From Hymenoscyphus infarciens (Eukaryota > Ascomycota > Leotiomycetes > Helotiales > Helotiaceae), in NCBI GenBank assembly GCA_001414345.1, contig LLCB01000279.1, forward strand, positions 1 to 64,000: 64,000 nucleotides of DNA, given 5' to 3'. This document shows positions 4,755 through 56,389 of the stretch, one piece after another (position 1 is the first letter of the stretch; each line of letters opens with the position of its first letter). Made by a program: the position numbers and the translations under genes. The notes under the pieces were generated by a model that saw only the letters and a program-made list of their open reading frames with translations, was not told where the DNA came from and did not search any database.

Positions 4755-6341
4755 ATGTCGTGGTTTTCAACTGAACGAGCAGGAAGAGAAGGGTGGAGAT
4801 TAGATATCGTCTCCCTCCTTGCTGTTATCGGTGAAGGAGCCATGGAATCCATTGTTCAACCTATGACTAGTTCCTGGACTTGCATCTTACCTCGGATTAT
4901 ACCTGCTCCTCAGGTTCTTTTGAAGGCGAATCGACCTACTAGGATGCCGGAGTTTGCTGCTGCTATTACAGGTGGGTATTATCCTGGAAGCCCCCCCCCC
5001 CATCTTTATGGTTTGTTTTAAGAGGGTTGCGAGGGTTGAGAGACTGTTTCCTCTTCAGGCATACTTCTAGAAAGGGCGATACTGACGCAGAGATCGTCTA
5101 CAGGAGTTTGGAATGGTACTTCGGTTGGAACTCTTAACTTCTTTCCGAACATCATCCACCCTATTGATGAAATGGATGCTTTTGCGTTTCGGGTTTTGGA
5201 GATTAGACATAAGGACGAGAGTCCGCCGGTGACCCGAAGAGCATCACCCGAGAAAGAGATGATAGGAAGCGTAGTGGGGGAGGGCGAAATGGAAGCTCAA
5301 CACACAATCCATATTCGGCGAAGCGAATCCACAATCAAGCATATCCAACGAGTTGTCACCGAGACGTTATTTAAACCAAGACCTCATATCCCAACACAGA
5401 GTTTCTCACCACTAAACTTACTCTCGGTTATCTCCTGCCTTCTCACGATCGGTCTCTTGATTTTAGCAGCAATAACCAAAGATGGAACTGCCTGTCTGGC
5501 ACTCATCACCATCTCCCTTTCCTCCTCGATTGTCGGTTATGCATCATGGTGGTCTCCAATCCTTAAGCGACGACCTTTTCAGGGGTATGTTCCGGACGGA
5601 GATCTTGCTATTCGTACGCGAGAAGGGGCGTTTATACTTGTGAAATGCAATGAGAATGTCGCAAGGTGGGTGCTCTCTTGGTTTTCGCCCTCTCTCTAGT
5701 TCTTTTAGATCTTTTTTAGAGGAGTTGTGTATCTATCTACGTGCTTAACCAACGAAAATACTGACTCCGAAATCCTCCACAGAGAGCTCTACACCGGGAC
5801 CGAAGAATGTCATTACTACGTCGGTCCAAAACCCTACCGTATCCTCGTCGGTTCTGGGACGTTTTTACTGATGATGTCCGTTGTTCTGTTGGGGAACTGC
5901 GATTTCCCTATGCAAGCGGCGATTGGGGGGAGCTACATGTTTTTGAATGGTGCATTCTGGCTAGTTTCCTTGCTGCGCAAGGATTGGTTTTGGGATTTGG
6001 GGTTATATGTTGTTAGAGATGTTACGCCCAGTGATGCATTGCATGCTGATGTTAGTATGGCGGGAATAGGCGGGGATTGGGATAGGGAGAAGATTGCTAG
6101 TTTTACGAGAACGTTGTGGTATGCGATTCGAGAGACTAAGGAGGTGGGGTGGGTGAGGAAGATGGGCGCTGCGCCTAATACTAAGGAATGGGATGAGTGG
6201 CTTAGGAAAGCTGAACGGGAGGCGAAGAGGGGAAATCGGGAGTGGAAGGCTGTTGGGAGGAGGGTGGAGCTTGTGGGTGGTGTTACTTCTGGAGGGGAGC
6301 AGAATGATAATGTGTGGCATGGTTCCTTGTCTACTGAGTAG
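4755..6341 (+). CDS. Conserved fungal multi-pass membrane protein, function unknown
   Basis: Exons are 4755-4971, 5104-5665 and 5783-6341, giving 445 aa. I recognise the general layout of an uncharacterised fungal membrane protein but can assign no function. Two hydrophobic hairpins are visible. One lies in exon 2 (LLSVISCLLTIGLLILAA then CLALITISLSSSIVGYASWW). The other is in exon 3 (ILVGSGTFLLMMSVVLLG then AAIGGSYMFLNGAFWLVSLL). Between them is a soluble stretch with DLAIRTREGAFILVKCNENVA crossing intron 2, and ELYTGTEECHYYVG follows the intron. The C-terminal ~120 residues are charged and look cytosolic. Both introns start GTGGGT and belong to the repeated intron family reported here. An earlier in-frame acceptor at 5057-5058 would add 15 residues. 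I chose 5103 because the sequence before it matches the 3' end of the HET-gene intron. The start ATG at 4755 has an ACA context. Confidence 0.8.
4972..5103 (+). mobile_element. Introner-like element copy A (intron 1 of the membrane-protein gene)
   Basis: 132-bp intron. It starts GTGGGTATTATCC and has GGTTTGTTTTAAGAGG in the middle after a poly-C run. It ends with CATACTTCTAGAAAGGGC, then GATACTGACGCAGAGATCGT and CTACAG. The 3' ~45 bp differ from the 3' end of the HET-gene intron (copy C) at only a handful of positions. ACTGAC is the probable branch point. Confidence 0.75.
5666..5782 (+). mobile_element. Introner-like element copy B (intron 2 of the membrane-protein gene)
   Basis: 117-bp intron. 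It starts GTGGGTGCTCTC, has TTTTTTAGAGGAG in the middle and ends AATACTGACTCCGAAATC then CTCCACAG. The end shares the ATACTGACTCCGA block with copies A, C and E. The middle has diverged and also holds a plain GCTTAACC branch-like site. Confidence 0.6.
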
Positions 6342-6700
6342 GTTTGTGTTTCCGGTTATTTTTGTGTGAGGTGCTGATGTTTTTATAGTCTTTGGGGATT
6401 TGCGAAACGCTTTCAGCAGTTTCATTTATGATTACTTTCGAGGTGAACCTTCACCGGTCCCAAGTTTGTTCAAGCATAAATAGAGTGCATAAGCGGAATA
6501 CAAACATATAACAGAGTGGTAGAACCCTTCTGCTGGTAATCTCAAATATAAGTATTTAGGGACAGGATGTATGAGAACTCGAAAACAAAACAAGCTATTG
6601 AGCAGACCATTCGAACCACCAGACCCCGTGTAAGAACAGTTCATCTGCAGGATCAGTGAAAGCACGCAGCATTTGAGATAGCTCATTGACGTCAATGTGG
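6342..6700. other. Intergenic, nothing recognised
   Basis: Normal-GC sequence between two convergent genes. No domain-bearing frame or RNA gene was seen. Confidence 0.5.
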
Positions 6701-7009
6701 TCAAGAAACGAGCTCCCAATCCTCACCACCGTCGCTTTGAAGAACCTTCAAGTATTGTCCGAAGCCATCGCCCAAGAAAGTCCCAGACAAGAAGTCTCCG
6801 AATTTAAGGGGTACCAAGGCAGCGCCCTCGATAACAGAACCAGCTGCGTCTACGGAGATGAAAAGTCGAGCTTGGGTGGCTACCGCCACAGTAACTTGAT
6901 CGGTACCGATGAGGACCGGGGTAGAAATGTTTTTGTCTTTAGCTGTGATGCGGAAGCGAGTTCGGCCTTGGTTAGAGAGAAAAACCGTCCTAGTTCTGTT
7001 TGTGAGATA
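6701..7009 (-). CDS. Last exon of an unidentified small protein
   Basis: The minus frame is open from about 7012 to a TGA at 6703-6701 and encodes about 100 residues. They are rich in beta-like and hydrophobic stretches, such as RFRITAKDKNISTPVLIGTD and VTVAVATQARLFISVDAAG, and end GGEDWELVS. Codon use and amino-acid mix look genuine. A good GTAAGC donor lies at 7098 and acceptors at 7011-7010 and 6997-6996. The short upstream exon starting near 7149 does not join in phase with either, so the 5' end is unresolved and the gene may be broken. Family unknown. Confidence 0.45.
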   Translation of the reverse strand, partial: YLTNRTRTVFLSNQGRTRFRITAKDKNISTPVLIGTDQVTVAVATQARLFISVDAAGSVIEGAALVPLKFGDFLSGTFLGDGFGQYLKVLQSDGGEDWELVS

Positions 7010-7236
7010 CTGTTAGAGTACTGGATTGGACTTGGAGCGAATAAAACAGCTACATGAGTCTTAACAACGTGGCTGATTAATGAGAAAGGGAGGCTTACCT
7101 GTTTCCACTAATATGGTCTGTAAATTGCTGGTTGGGTGGAACATAACTCAGCACTCAACCACCGAGATCATTCAACAAAGTAACCATGATCTTTTTTTTG
7201 GAATTGTGGTGCTTGGGAGGCTGTCATGAGAGTGGT

Positions 7237-7791
7237 TTATGGGTGGACTGCGGAGGATGTGTCCCATTCCGGGATTTTGCGTTCTACTGTTAGGCAACTT
7301 AGGTTCTTGCCTGCGACTTCTCTGCCAACGATCTTGGAGTTAGTATTGCCAATTCTAGAAGCATGTTTAAGGAAATTGAGGAGCAAGCAGGGATGTGAGG
7401 AGGAAATGAGTTGTCTGCGGAGGAAACCAAGTTTCAGTCCTCCTAAAACAACCCGAAAGAGGAAAAAAGAACTCGGAGAACACCCACCGCCACCATTCAT
7501 CGATAACTTTGAAGCTCTCGGCGGTTAGGAGATAGCGCTAGTTGTCTTGGTTGGTGGACTTGGTTCTTTTTAGTTGGCTTCTGGTTATAATTTTGGGAGA
7601 TTAGTACTAGTAAATGAATGACTGACCATTCGACGTAGGCGTTGAAAACCATAATGATGGGACCTGTCTCTCGTGAAGAATGCTCTGGAGTGGCTGGCTA
7701 ATGAAACAGCTTCGTGAAACAGATTGACCATGTAATTCCCCGAGATATCAATTTCCAAAGATTTAGAACAATGGAGTTCCAAGTGGTTCAT
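7237..7791 (-). CDS. Small hypothetical protein carrying a HET-like intron
   Basis: Exons on the minus strand are 7791-7627, 7537-7488 and 7321-7237, joining in phase to 99 aa ending WDTSSAVHP. The joins read GFQRLRRM / RYLLTAESFKVIDEWW / REVAGKNLSC with no stop. Intron 1 (89 bp) uses GTCAGT and CTAG. Intron 2 (166 bp) is a full-length relative of the HET-gene intron 4.6 kb away. No family is recognised. The short length could mean a truncated gene, but the intact frame across three exons argues for a real coding sequence. Confidence 0.5.
7322..7487 (-). mobile_element. Introner-like element copy D (intron 2 of the 99-aa gene)
   Basis: 166-bp intron. It starts GTGGGTGTTCTCCGAGTTC, has GGTTGTTTTAGGAGG in the middle and TTTCCTCCTCAC further on. 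It ends GGCAATACTAACTCCAAGAT then CGTTGGCAG. By eye it aligns with copy C from end to end, with roughly three quarters of positions identical. The flanking exons of the two genes do not resemble each other. Confidence 0.8.
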
Positions 7792-8157
7792 CTGGATGAA
7801 GTTGGTTAACGATTATTAAAGAGGGTTTTCAGTATAAAAGAGTAGTTATTAAGATAGTAAGAAACTAAAATCGCGTTTAGTATTACTTAGACTCTTATAG
7901 AAGAAGTACGTTCCTTACTAATTTTCTATTAAGCTAGGCTTAATAAGGAATTTTTTAGCCTACTTTCTACAAATGTCAAAGAGGTCCGTTATATAAGTGG
8001 CTGGAATTTCAAGGCGACCGAGCACGTGGGGCACGTGCTAAACAAAAAATGCCACAGATAAATCAAGCAAGGCGATCTTGTATGAAGATTTTACTAGCTC
8101 AACATCACGAGACCTCTGTACACTCGAGATTACAAGATATTCCAGGGAAGGTAGGTC
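7792..8157. other. Intergenic, partly AT-rich, nothing recognised
   Basis: Sequence 7805-7980 is AT-rich with TpA-rich runs like the degraded repeats elsewhere, so it may be a transposon scrap. The rest is the promoter side of the APH-like gene. No gene seen. Confidence 0.4.
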
Positions 8158-9156
8158 ATGATTCACCAGGCATGGTTTGCAGAATCACCTGACAATTTGT
8201 TCATAGAAATGGCGGCCACGATTCCAAACGAATTGCTACAGAGGCACCACATGGACTTTCTAGAATCGACCTTCTTTCAGTCCAGTCAACCCTCAAGGAG
8301 GCTTCCGACTCCCTTAGAGGTTAGAGCATTGTGTGGGGTAAAAAAATCGCAACCCCCTCCAGTGATCTTTGAAGACCTCAATCTTATTGTTAAATTTGGG
8401 CCCTTCGTCAAGATCCAGGAGGCTCTATGTCTTTGGGTCGTCAGGAAGGAATTGGGGGACCAGGTTCCGGTTCCAGAAGTTTACGGCTGGCGTGTGGATG
8501 AAAACGAAGTATTCATTTATATGCAGCTGATTCAGGGTATCGCGCTCCAAGACCGATGGGGCAGTTTGAGCGTGCCAGAAAAGACGACTGTTTGTGAACA
8601 GATAAATACTATGCTCAAATCTCTACGTCGACTTAGGCAAGAACCTTGCCATCAATTTATTAGTATGTTCACAGTTGCCTTACTACACCGCACAAGTTTA
8701 CGGGAGTCTAATTCTGACCTGCTCGTAGGGGCAATTAACGGCAAACCTCCTGGAGATATAGTCTTTGAGGACATGCAAGCAGCTGGGCCTTTTCCCAACG
8801 TCAAAACTTTCAACGACTGGTTTTCCTCTCTCCCCCAACGATCCCTTTCCGAATCTCAAAAATACCAGGATCCCTACAGACCACTTCTTGCAGATGATGG
8901 CGTAATTACATTCACACATGGTGATATCCACCAAGGAAACATCTTAATTTCTCATCAACGCCCTTTTCGGGTAGTGGCAATTGTAGACTGGGGCCAGGCG
9001 GGCTGGTAGCCGGACTATTGGGAATACTGCAAGGCTGCATATACTTGTATCTATTCTGGGGAGTGGCGTCTAAAGTGGATCCCCATGTTTCTTACTCCAC
9101 GGCTTGATGAACATGAAGCATTCTCGGAGTATGTAATGTCTATTGGCGCGGTTTGA
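8158..9156 (+). pseudogene. APH/protein-kinase-like phosphotransferase with an internal TAG
   Basis: The frame 8158-9006 encodes an APH-family phosphotransferase. LIVKFGPF carries the ATP-binding Lys, VPEVYGWRVD is the hinge region, HGDIHQGNI is the catalytic loop with Asp and Asn, and IVDWGQAGW is the metal-binding Asp block. A TAG stop at 9007-9009 follows GQAGW. The same frame then stays open to TGA 9154-9156 and reads PDYWEYCKAAYTCIYSGEW, the expected family continuation (fungal members usually read WYPDYWEY-like here). One base change at a Tyr codon explains the stop. With the stop, the product keeps the catalytic core but lacks the last ~49 residues. Substrates of fungal members are mostly unknown. 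Start 8158 is the first in-frame ATG; 8209 is an alternative. Confidence 0.8.
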
Positions 9157-9318
9157 TTCTGAAATAACTATTTGAATATTTAAACATGGGTGTCTCTTTC
9201 TGGGGCCCTGACAGTGATCCTTCCACTTCCTTGCTGTATTGATGTCCCGCCATGTCTTGTATCTTCAAACCTTACCAACCGAGTTCATCACCTACTTCGT
9301 GGCTGGATGAACTTCTTC

Positions 9319-9603
9319 TTAAACCAGCCCGGGGGGAAGAGGTGGTGGTGGAGCTGACGAGCTTCCTCCAGTCGATTGAATCAACCCGCCTTCTGTTCGC
9401 CCTCCCATGGCACTGTGTACACCCAGAGCAAACACCGACGAAAAACCGACTGAAAGCCACTGCAAAACGACTACAGCCGTTCCTGTGGTCAGAGGTACAA
9501 AAGTATTTCCCAGCATACTTGTCGCAAATTGTAGACCATTTGTGGTCAATTGGGTTGATACTGCCGCGACGAGCCCAAATACAACCGACCCTCCAATTGC
9601 CAT
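9319..9603 (-). CDS. Possible terminal exon of a membrane protein (weak)
   Basis: A minus frame of 94 codons starts right after an acceptor-like TTTTTTCACAG. It has two hydrophobic stretches (GGSVVFGLVAAVS and TGTAVVVLQWLSVGFSSVFA) and ends SSAPPPPLPPGLV. The opposite strand is also open (9252-9659), so strand choice is uncertain. No family is recognised. Confidence 0.25.
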   Translation of the reverse strand: MAIGGSVVFGLVAAVSTQLTTNGLQFATSMLGNTFVPLTTGTAVVVLQWLSVGFSSVFALGVHSAMGGRTEGGLIQSTGGSSSAPPPPLPPGLV

Positions 9604-9659
9604 CTGTGAAAAAATTCTGCAAAACCTCTACAAAAACGATTATTGAGACGAGTGTTTAA

Positions 9660-10181
9660 ACAATATGTAGGAAGGTTGGAAGAATAAGATTATCCTTCGT
9701 CGTTCTCGGTACACCTAAACAGAATGAACTTATACTAAGAAGCCTGAAACAATCCAATGTCTGGGTTGTATTTTGCGAAAGATTTTGGGTGACCAGAACT
9801 CGTCACTTCTTGTTGTTCCAATTCTCCTGAAACAACAAAATTCATTGTCCAAGACTCGTAGCACAATAATTTCTTATGGGTGTACGTACAGAATAATGAC
9901 CTCGACTCTTACAACCTTACAACAGGCCACTGATTGAATATAAAAACAGCAAACCATACCGAGGTAACATGAGAGCGTCGTTATGCAACTCAAGCATATA
10001 TTGTTTGCTACCAAACCCCTTCTCTTGGAAGAAGGAAAGAGAAATGCTTATTTACTGTAACCGAAAGTTGAAACAAGAAAATGGTTAGTGAAAGGGCCAT
10101 GCAACTCACTAGACTTTCTTTGCCCCTCCATTGTTACAGCTGAAATTTTGAAGTGAGATTCATTATCTTGTAGGTTTCATT
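9660..10181. other. Intergenic, nothing recognised
   Basis: Normal-GC sequence downstream of the HET gene on its strand. No open frame with a domain was seen. Confidence 0.5.
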
Positions 10182-12920
10182 CTATACTAAGCGAAAACTC
10201 TGGTTCGAACTGTGCTTTGGTATAGGATCAACAGCTTCACCATCCATCATACCATGTACATAACATTCTCCAACGAATCCAAAGTTCTTTCCAACTCTCT
10301 TCAATACAACTGGGACCGAACACCCAAATACAATACACACCAAGTGGCCAATTTCGGCATTTGGTGGTGCTAAGCCAACAAGCTTTTTACCATCTTCCAT
10401 AGTGGTGGAAAAGCATTTTCTTTCCCAAATCACCTGCTGTACACGATCTAAGAATTCCACCTTGCCATCGGGTGTCCCGGCTAGTCTTGCCAGGGTATTC
10501 GTGTTAAAATAGGTGTCCGGTTGGTCTTCATACCATTTCATACATGCCTTGCAAGCTATACGATACCAATTGGGTGGATTGGTGCCGTCTGGCCCCCTAT
10601 TAGCCACCAGGGTTCGCCATAATTGGTCCCATTCTGCCTCAGAAAGCTCCCTACCCTGCTCCCATCCAAGTACCCCAAGCGCTTTTTTGTTGAGTAATCC
10701 TCCTGTAATCGGGGCAGATTCTTGGATTTCTCCAAGTGAAAATCCGCGGACAGTAAGAGACCCATTGAATTGTGGTGGGGGTATTTTCTTAAACTGGACT
10801 GGTTTTGTTTCGGTGTATTGTCCGGAAGCCTGCTTTAGTCGTTTTTGCTTGCCATTTGCGACAGGTTTGTATCTACCGAACTTGAACTCTGGGAGGAGTC
10901 CACCTGATGCAGAGTAGTTACTCTTCCCATTTACACCCCCAACGAGGCTGTCTCCGTTGGATCGACTCTGGAACAGTCCTCTAGGTCCACCATAAGCATG
11001 TCCGTCTAGTGGTAGGATCCACGAGGGGATGTTGGGTTTTCGGCCATGTTCATCCTCAGCTGGCATGGGTGCCCAGTGTCGGCAAATGATATCCAAAGAC
11101 TTTGAAGTTTCCACACAATATTCTATAAAGTCTGCATACACATCGACAGTACTCTTCTCATAGTTTGGTTCAATACGTTTGTCGACCATCTTTCGCGTGA
11201 GTTTGGTGCCTCGAAATGTCGTTGCAAAATATTTTGTAATTTTGTGAACAATGTACCCGCTGACAAGCCAAATCAAGAGTCCAGTCAAGAGCAAAATTAT
11301 TGTCCAGATCAAGCCAATTACCACCAATCGTGATGATGAGCTAACGCTCACAGCCGAGGCTGACGTATAAACCGAGCTACCGCTGCTAATCCCTGAAAGC
11401 AATATCTTCATTCTCTTTTTGGAAATGATGAAACTCAATTTCCAAACTAACATGGCTATTAGCGGAACACCAAGAACACCGAGTCCCGTCACCAAGATGA
11501 GCGTCAGCCAGGTGCTAGTTTCCTCTTCCCGGTCCTCTGGTATGAAGCTATCTTTGGCGATTTTGAGCACCGCGAAAATGGTATCCTTGGGATCTGATGC
11601 CTCAAATGCAAGGAGCATAGACGAGACCAGCTGCTCAAGAGTGAGTAGACGTTGTTGTATTTTGCCCTCGTTTGTTTTCCGAAAGAGGTTGCTGGTGGTT
11701 GTGACCAAAATGTTGGCCCCAAGTGCTCTGGCATCCAGAGCCGCCATCAAGTTTTCTTCGGGGTTTCGAGACGTTGAGTAGTTTTTTGGTTTCCCGTCGG
11801 AGACACGCCTGATTGAAGTGTGCTTTGTCATGAACAATGCTATTGCATCCCCAAAATCTGTCCAAGGCATAACCTCCCCGCCACAGCGAACATATGGTCG
11901 AGTAGCCAGCGCCAGTTCTTGAATTACCCATCGTCGTTTAAACTGGTGGACGATCTCGGAGTCAGTATTGCCTTTCCTAGAAGTATGTTTGAGGAAAAGA
12001 AGGCGGAAACAGGGTTGCGTGAGGAGGAAGTGAGATGTCTAGGGAGGAATAGTGTCTCCCTCCTCCTAAAACAACCTAATAGAGGGGAAAATAACTCGGA
12101 GAATACCCACCCAATCGACTTTCATCAACCTGATGACATTATTGCAGGCCAGAAGCTCCGGTTGTTGCTTTTCCTTGAGTCTCCGAATAAAAATATCCAA
12201 TTTTTCAAGGTCAAGAATGTCTCGTAAAAACTGAAAGGTACGATTGTTTTCTTCGTCTCCGCCCACAGCATCTCCAAGCCAGATACACACTTCTTCGGCT
12301 TGAAGATAAACATCATGCATGCGTGACACTTGGGCAGTTCTTTCCTCTGGGTACTTTTGGTTGATGCAAAGGGCGTCGGCCCACACGTACACCCTTTCAG
12401 TCTTCGATCTCAATTGTCGCAAAGCGCTATTCAAGTTGTTTTGGATGCACTTGTAGCTCACGATCTTTTCTAAGAGGCCGTCCATTGCCGTATCTCCGAT
12501 TGTGGTAAAATTTTCGTGAGTCTCATCATCCTCAAAAAGATAAACTTTGTGTTTTTCGATATCAGTGCCCCAGTAATATGAGAGGGCTGTATATCTGATC
12601 GGTGCTTCCATATTCTGACGCGGTTGATCACCCCCTACTAAAGGCCAAGGCGACAAGCGGCATTCAAGTCGAGAGTCAGCGGTGCCTGGATATATGGTAA
12701 GAACTCGTATTTCGCAGTCATAATCGATGTCTTTGTATGCGTAGGTTGTCCGCTTTCCAGTTGTCTCTTTCTTGGCTCTCTTCCATAGATGCATGCTACG
12801 CCGGGCTTCATTGCCCTGGTCGGCGACTCTGGGAGAGGTTGCGCCATTCTGGAATGTATCTGCTCTATTTAACGGTGTTGGTGAATTTCGTCCGGAAGTT
12901 TCTGGCTCTGAATTTGCCAT
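10182..12920 (-). CDS. HET-domain protein with two membrane segments
   Basis: Minus exons are 12920-12111 and 11942-10182, giving 856 aa, phase 0 at the junction. Residues ~68-290 form a heterokaryon incompatibility (HET) domain with RYTALSYYWG at 110-118 and VWADALCINQ at 179-188. The intron splits the third HET block, and joining restores MKVDW/FKRRWVIQELALA. ASDPKDTIFAVL follows near residue 385. Two strong hydrophobic segments lie at ~415-443 and ~476-501, which is unusual for HET proteins. The C-terminal half is poorly recognisable and ends in an MMDGEAVDP-type segment known from HET-NACHT relatives, where it is often in a Gly/Val-rich C-terminal block. HET proteins trigger cell death after non-self fusion. 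A role here is inferred from the domain only. The 168-bp intron is a member of the repeated intron family. Confidence 0.87.
11943..12110 (-). mobile_element. Introner-like element copy C (HET-gene intron)
   Basis: 168-bp intron. It starts GTGGGTATTCTCCGAGTTAT, has GGTTGTTTTAGGAGG in the middle and TTCCTCCTCACG further on. It ends with CATACTTCTAGGAAAGGC, then AATACTGACTCCGAGATC and GTCCACCAG. It is the closest relative of copy D and shares its 3' block with A, B and E. Confidence 0.8.
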
Positions 12921-55811: not shown

Positions 55812-56389
55812 ATGCATTACAACGCCCTCGCCGCCACCCTCGCCATCCTCTCCATTCTCGCCCTCACAACCGCAAGCCCCCACCACACTCGCCCAACCCC
55901 CACGTTCGTTACTCCTCCTCCACCAGGCGAAAGTAAGCCAGACCTTCCGTTTCCCCCTAGCTTCACCACCTCACCCCCTTCCCTTTCCCTTCCCTCCCAA
56001 CACCTCTCCCTCAATTCATCACTAACATCCTCCCCAAGCATACGCAATAGGCTTCCCCCTCTGCGGCATCCCCGGCTACACCGTAGTACCAGGAAACTAC
56101 ACCGAAACCGTCGGACAACAAACAAACGCCACCTTAAAGGGCTGCTACAAACAATGTCGAGTCACGAATGGGGCGTGTAAGAGTATCGCTTATCACGCTA
56201 GATACACTCTGTGTTTGTTTTTCGATGTTAGTATCCTCTTTTCTTTTGGGGGTTCGACCGGGTAGTTGAGAACAGAGATGGCAATACTGACTCGGAGATT
56301 TTCTTTTCCAGCGCGTGGTGGAGGAGACGCAGTTGGAGAGGGCGGATGATAGTGAGTTTGTGCATTGGGATTTGAGGTGTCATGTCTAA
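55812..56389 (+). CDS. Small secreted cysteine-rich protein, effector-like
   Basis: Exons are 55812-55932, 56039-56226 and 56312-56389, in phase, giving 128 aa. The N-terminal signal peptide is MHYNALAATLAILSILALTT. A Thr/Pro-rich segment follows, then a mature domain with six Cys (FPLCGIPG, GCYKQC, NGACKSI, YTLCLFF, WDLRCHV). The GCYKQC...CKSIAYH...CLFFD pattern recalls small PAN/apple-like fungal secreted proteins, but I cannot assign a family firmly. Intron 1 (106 bp) starts GTAAGC and has a CACTAAC branch site. Intron 2 (85 bp) shares its 3' block with the repeated intron family. Function unknown; secretion and disulfide bonding are inferred from the sequence. Confidence 0.78.
56227..56311 (+). 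mobile_element. Introner-like element copy E (intron 2 of the secreted-protein gene)
   Basis: 85-bp intron. It starts GTTAGTATCCTC and ends GGCAATACTGACTCGGAGAT then TTTCTTTTCCAG. Its 20-bp end block differs from that of copy C at one base. The 5' half is short and diverged. Confidence 0.55.

Follow-up and report, generated by a model that had tools for sequence, protein, structure and literature searches.

The origin of new introns is an old open question, and few systems permit it to be studied copy by copy. Introns that copy themselves into unrelated genes are a known but rarely seen route. The closest described cases come from two groups of ascomycetes, and what is said of them here holds for the available portions of the sources cited. 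In the Dothideomycetes Fulvia fulva, Dothistroma septosporum and Zymoseptoria tritici, introner-like elements are repeated canonical introns at new positions in unrelated genes, seamless and degenerating toward ordinary introns (PMC4457414), with stable structure or inverted repeats (cited in PMC8469720). In Hypoxylaceae and Xylariaceae, sister introns and stwintrons occupy new sense positions and carry terminal inverted repeats that pair in the RNA, with no target-site duplication (PMC8469720, PMC12403724); a [D1,2] stwintron starts with GGT and consists of an internal intron lying within the donor of an external one. RNA-mediated insertion models have been discussed for both the fungal introner-like elements and the Xylariales stwintrons (PMC8469720, PMC12403724), whereas many DNA-transposon introners, as in algae and other protists, bear target-site duplications that supply one of their splice sites (PMC9860276). 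Here we describe a family of repeated introns in a fungus of the Helotiales, Hymenoscyphus infarciens (Leotiomycetes), starting from a stretch of 64,000 nucleotides (contig LLCB01000279.1 of assembly GCA_001414345.1, positions 1 to 64,000), which we call the window.

An initial annotation of the window had singled out four introns in three genes as members of one mobile-looking family of introner-like elements, and had set a genome-wide search as a test. The coordinates it gave are right, all four introns having GT...AG ends, and the search returned more than 200 copies, not just the loci of the window. In the host genome (65.6 Mb in 742 contigs), a 17-base word from the 3' block of the intron has 212 matches with at most two mismatches, against 2 for the reversed control; a 20-base 3' block has 173 matches with at most three mismatches (3 for the reversed control), and an 18-base 5' block has 190 at the same tolerance (35 for the control). 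The family thus comprises at least about 210 copies in this genome, and the true number may be higher because the 5' and 3' blocks are not always paired among the places listed. A blast search with the intron at 11943..12110 gave 109 candidates; the 40 that were scored all match, 38 of them from the first base of the intron. This abundance, the in-frame placement of the copies in the sense direction and the uninterrupted sites in homologous proteins, both described below, support the interpretation as introner-like elements. The introns almost certainly belong to an introner family, and they are very probably copies of one element multiplied by exact insertion into exons. Elements of this kind have been described before; the family itself seems to be new, as we found no earlier report of introners in Leotiomycetes or Helotiales (subscription literature was mostly outside the search, and the species lists of PMC9860276 may already hold a Leotiomycete).

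We derived a family profile from 29 genome copies, with the window introns at 11943..12110 and 7322..7487 among the seeds (L009, L030). It matched 81 of 98 loci fetched from the genome at E 0.01 or better, some of these loci spanning one and the same copy, and left 17 without a match; at the same threshold it found nothing when the 98 loci and the window were reversed. Copies entered the sample because either their 3' block or their full-length match was good. After joining of pieces, removal of duplicates and dropping of 22 partial copies, 64 copies with both ends defined formed the working set, to which figures refer unless otherwise given. Ordinary introns were represented by 25 candidates from the same sequences; since the reversed sequence passes 8, about a third of them may be false.

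Within the window, gene 1 (4755..6341, plus strand; no Pfam match for the 314-aa piece submitted) encodes 445 aa once two family introns are removed and 88 aa when unspliced. The first, of 132 nt (4972..5103, plus), is matched by the profile in two parts (E 1e-10 and 5e-5), and its splicing joins the frame. The second, of 117 nt (5666..5782, plus), is degenerate and weak by profile (E 0.013 for the 3' part, 3.6 for the 5' part); it is needed for the 445-aa frame, and we accepted it as a member because its 3' block has a single mismatch to the 17-base word whose genome matches number 212 against 2. The intron of gene 2, of 166 nt (7322..7487, minus; profile E 5e-43), gives ...ESFKVIDEWWR|EVAGKNLSCLTVERKIPEWDTSSAVHP-stop when spliced, and the coding-score test is not concordant for this copy. 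Gene 3 (10182..12920, minus) encodes a HET-domain protein, with 856 aa spliced versus 284 aa unspliced and the domain (PF06985) spanning the junction; its sole intron is a family member of 168 nt (11943..12110, minus; profile E 9e-50). As these last two introns were seeds, only 4972..5103 is independent among the three strong profile matches. These three matches, with the 3' block of 5666..5782, bear out the grouping of the four introns, whose list was correct but short of a fifth, degenerate member of 85 nt (56227..56311, plus; E 2e-4 for the 3' part), for which the donor was picked by eye and the exons are joined in frame.

The long form of the element measures about 167 nt, and shorter copies, down to 100 nt, are without parts of the middle. 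The consensus starts with GTGGGTATTCTCCGAGTT and ends with CATACTTCTAGAAAGGGCAATACTGACTCCGAGATCATCCGCAG. The likeness spans the whole intron and ends at the splice sites: across 35 well-matching copies, conservation exceeds 1 bit in 65 of the 80 columns at the intron ends and is at most 0.27 bits in the 80 adjoining exon columns. In 53 of the 64 copies, 14 nt separate the branch-point element from the acceptor, the value reported for Xylariaceae, and the motif TTCTAGAAA, present in 26/64 copies at a median distance of 39 nt to the 3' end, is the core of a 10-nt palindrome of Hypoxylon (PMC8469720, PMC12403724). Unlike in the Xylariales (stw)introns, however, this core sits in the 3' arm, off-centre in the repeat, and we read the Helotiales element as a plain single intron rather than a nested pair (PMC8469720, PMC12403724): removal of one plain GT-AG unit restores the frames, and a G precedes the GT in 24/64 copies (nested splice sites were not searched for). 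The elements of Dothideomycetes and of Hypoxylon both come from fungal classes other than that of our host. With the former, the family shares repetition of a canonical intron in unrelated genes at new positions, seamless insertion, degeneration toward ordinary introns, and stable structure or inverted repeats, while its primary sequence seems different, from a comparison by description only.

Most copies lie within genes, in the sense direction of coding sequence whose spliced frame is continuous. With flanks of 90 bp, frames are concordant across 47 of the 64 junctions (P 6e-11; 43 to 47 over the four flank lengths tried), and 43 of these 47 frames would be broken if the intron were kept. 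Where both flanks score as coding, concordance rises from 31/44 at 60 bp to 38/44 at 90, 36/40 at 120 and 35/36 at 150. With 150-bp flanks, the sense strand scores higher in 58/64 copies, compared with 77 of 124 control positions taken from these loci. Ten spliced proteins were compared with Pfam, and their host genes come from unrelated families; six have a domain that spans the junction (HET, FAD-binding of ferric reductase, MFS, sugar transporter, GH28 and IBR), two have one away from it, and two have none. For the polygalacturonase, both alignments shown, among ten matched structures, are gapless over the junction. From the sequence, we infer that the family copies are spliced in the cell.

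Are these introns at new positions? The site is uninterrupted in all 33 homologous proteins aligned for three genes. For the sugar transporter, these are 11 of 120 homologues listed out of 958, with identities of up to 92%; for the Mgs1-like ATPase, 12 out of a list of 120; and for the HET protein, 10 of 115 listed, the closest 74% identical over its full length. Each of the 33 is gapless through the insertion site. The nearest named homologues, among those listed, include Lachnellula, Venustampulla, Hyaloscypha, Phlyctema, Coleophoma and Stipitochalara, with Lachnellula and Coleophoma belonging, like our host, to the Helotiales (Leotiomycetes). Paralogues in the same genome agree: 60 matches that cover 10 residues to either side of the site (34 for the sugar transporter, 5 for the polygalacturonase, 11 for the MFS transporter and 10 for the ferric reductase) are uninterrupted there, 49 of them without a stop codon. 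Seven more (4, 2, 1 and 0, respectively) end less than 10 residues away from it and decide nothing as to occupancy.

We found no consistent target-site duplication in the 64 copies (best z 2.7 among hundreds of offsets). The scan compared words of 2, 3, 4, 5, 6 and 8 bases that begin between 14 bases upstream and 6 downstream of the donor with words that begin between 12 upstream and 9 downstream of the acceptor. Relative to exon composition, purines are enriched at positions -3 (48/64) and -1 (47/64) and pyrimidines at +1 (50/64), with P values of 3e-5 to 1e-4, uncorrected for 12 positions. A purine at -3 is equally common at ordinary candidates (18/25) and may reflect a general splicing preference, and the -1 purine does not differ significantly from ordinary candidates; at +1, on the other hand, a purine is found at 14/64 family sites versus 15/25 ordinary candidates (P 0.001, the ordinary set being small and impure). 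The sequence AG|G occurs at 3/64 insertion sites, in contrast to the AG/GY preference described for Dothideomycetes elements (cited in PMC8469720), and the +1 pyrimidine preference contrasts with Xylariales (stw)introns, for which no exon bias is reported in the available portions of PMC8469720 and PMC12403724.

In a consensus built from the 30 longest copies, the two ends of the element form an imperfect terminal inverted repeat of about 46 nt. Predicted terminal RNA pairing is present in 54 of 62 copies versus 93 of 620 shuffles; RNAalifold returned no pairs on a 52-copy alignment and end-to-end pairing on the 30 copies that reach 160 nt or more. Ordinary candidates show terminal pairing as frequently (16/24), which makes an unfair control because they are about 57 nt long, and the 32 nt at the 3' end make up most of that length. 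The family bears on a disagreement in the literature: a large survey, in its available portions, describes ascomycete introner families with neither terminal inverted repeats nor duplications (PMC9860276), whereas inverted repeats without duplication have been reported in Xylariales (PMC8469720, PMC12403724), and the imperfect repeats found here place our family with the latter reports, with which it also shares RNA pairing of the ends and new sense positions. Insertion of one element into exons and imperfect terminal inverted repeats are likewise shared with the DNA-transposon introners of algae and other protists (PMC9860276); unlike many of those, the Helotiales family carries both of its splice sites and shows no duplication. 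With its sharp edges, site preference and pairing ends, it offers more than 200 insertions for study.

Over the 64 copies, pairwise identity has a median of 73%, and nearest neighbours a median of 84%, that is, a difference of about 16%. Near-identical copies, the mark of recent activity, are lacking: the closest pair is 93.7% identical, compared with 98-99% in active Dothideomycetes families (PMC4457414). In 52 copies, nearest neighbours differ by 6.5-7.8% in the donor and branch point, 14.2-16.9% in the arms and 19.4% in the middle, as expected if splicing is kept while the remainder drifts. The description of these introns as mobile-looking is thus best taken to mean past mobility, and the family has presumably stopped moving or slowed down.

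In the explanation that we favour, a canonical GT-AG spliceosomal intron would have given rise to copies inserted exactly into exons, mostly in the sense direction. As each copy bears its own donor, branch point and acceptor, splicing would remove it and leave the protein unchanged. The excised intron RNA might serve as the intermediate, either by reverse splicing or by insertion of the RNA at a break in transcribed DNA, and would then be copied to DNA; the paired ends might protect this RNA and keep its termini together. Judging from sequence features, an RNA route of insertion is reasonably likely: sense placement in exons, lack of duplication, edges at the splice sites and pairing ends all fit RNA-mediated models, without proving them.

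Several observations weigh against this explanation. At 90 bp, 17/64 junctions are non-concordant, and some copies may sit in untranslated regions, beside other introns or outside genes. The homologous proteins may be spliced models or transcript assemblies instead of genomic frames, although several of them start at an internal methionine or lie on long contigs, as would suit frames predicted from genomic sequence. Identities remain below those of active families; we did not take this to exclude membership, because degenerate families have been described (PMC4457414). Sampling by good matches favours copies under splicing constraint. As for the hairpin, covariation in the consensus structure does not go beyond shuffles (14 two-sided pair changes versus 14.3), the copy at 7322..7487 has no end-to-end fold (z 0.47), and the decay of the hairpin with divergence that is reported for Hypoxylon (PMC8469720, PMC12403724) is not seen here (rho 0.11, P 0.46).

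Could the copies instead be short non-autonomous DNA transposons with terminal inverted repeats, spliceable by chance and moved as DNA by a transposase, the route put forward for many introners outside ascomycetes? The inverted-repeat ends, imperfect over about 46 nt, would suit such an element, and most introner families outside ascomycetes bear marks of this kind (PMC9860276). However, no offset tested yielded a target-site duplication, both edges coincide with splice sites, and 58/64 copies are in the sense direction, although selection against unspliced copies or the choice of the sample could also yield that bias. We consider a transposon origin unlikely. That the introns spread along with duplicated genes or segments, or through conversion between related genes, might be suspected from the presence of two or more copies with both ends defined in one gene or neighbourhood (gene 1 of the window, L023, L048 and L086), and from L036 and L038 with partial copies. 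It is nonetheless highly improbable, as the 200-bp flanks of the 64 copies are mutually unrelated (the single match is one 27-base stretch counted twice) and the host families are unrelated.

The initial annotation had itself raised the case that the similarity might be no higher than between random introns of matched composition. The copies would then be ordinary introns that share just the usual splice signals. Donor, branch point and acceptor are indeed of the usual fungal kind and are the slowest-changing parts of the element. Yet similarity extends over the whole intron and is far above that of ordinary candidates: over the last 45 nt it averages 0.76 among members and 0.40 among ordinary candidates, with 495 of 500 sampled member pairs exceeding the top sampled ordinary pair, and the donor GTGGGT is found in 39/64 copies versus 0/24 ordinary candidates. 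Chance likeness of ordinary introns is thus practically negligible as an explanation, and we retain that of exactly inserted introner copies.

A more speculative proposal is that the introns of Xylariales (Sordariomycetes) and the Helotiales family represent one lineage, or one mechanism, of RNA-mobile introns that would have given rise to new introns across Pezizomycotina. Their joint design might tentatively be drawn as a terminal stem, a fixed 14-nt gap holding the 3' half of this stem, and TTCTAGAAA in the inner 3' arm; the Helotiales family could then conceivably be set apart by a target preference of its own, a pyrimidine directly after the site. As the two groups were compared by description, we take the likeness to Xylariales as a lead, not as evidence of descent.

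Some further observations concern distribution and variants. The 64-kb window holds 5 members, whereas a density of 212 in 65.6 Mb predicts about 0.21 (Poisson P 3e-6; the window was not randomly chosen), and among 100 places listed of the 3'-block matches, 3 pairs lie no more than 2 kb apart, versus 0.30 expected. Perfect 5' blocks at C1:240341, C28:148492 and C225:97728 of the host genome (G000) are without a partner among the 3'-block matches listed, and may belong to copies whose 3' end has diverged or been lost. Outside this genome, the 17-base word is matched exactly 7 times in 257 billion bases of prokaryote contigs, a result that we ascribe to chance, and the 3' 20-mer is without an exact match in IMG/VR; Rfam at gathering scores gave 0 matches in six sources (the window, L010, L020, L061, L063 and L086). 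Two long copies, L061 (361 nt, minus) and L063 (311 nt, minus), carry inserts of about 180-200 nt in comparable positions. These inserts do not resemble each other, that of L063 having an inverted repeat by eye, and are possibly small elements landed within the intron. Finally, the introns of L034, L043, L097, L008, L072 and L041 have in common an interior AGCTTTGTTT, found with one change in L056, which the long form does not have; this suggests a subfamily that multiplied on its own.

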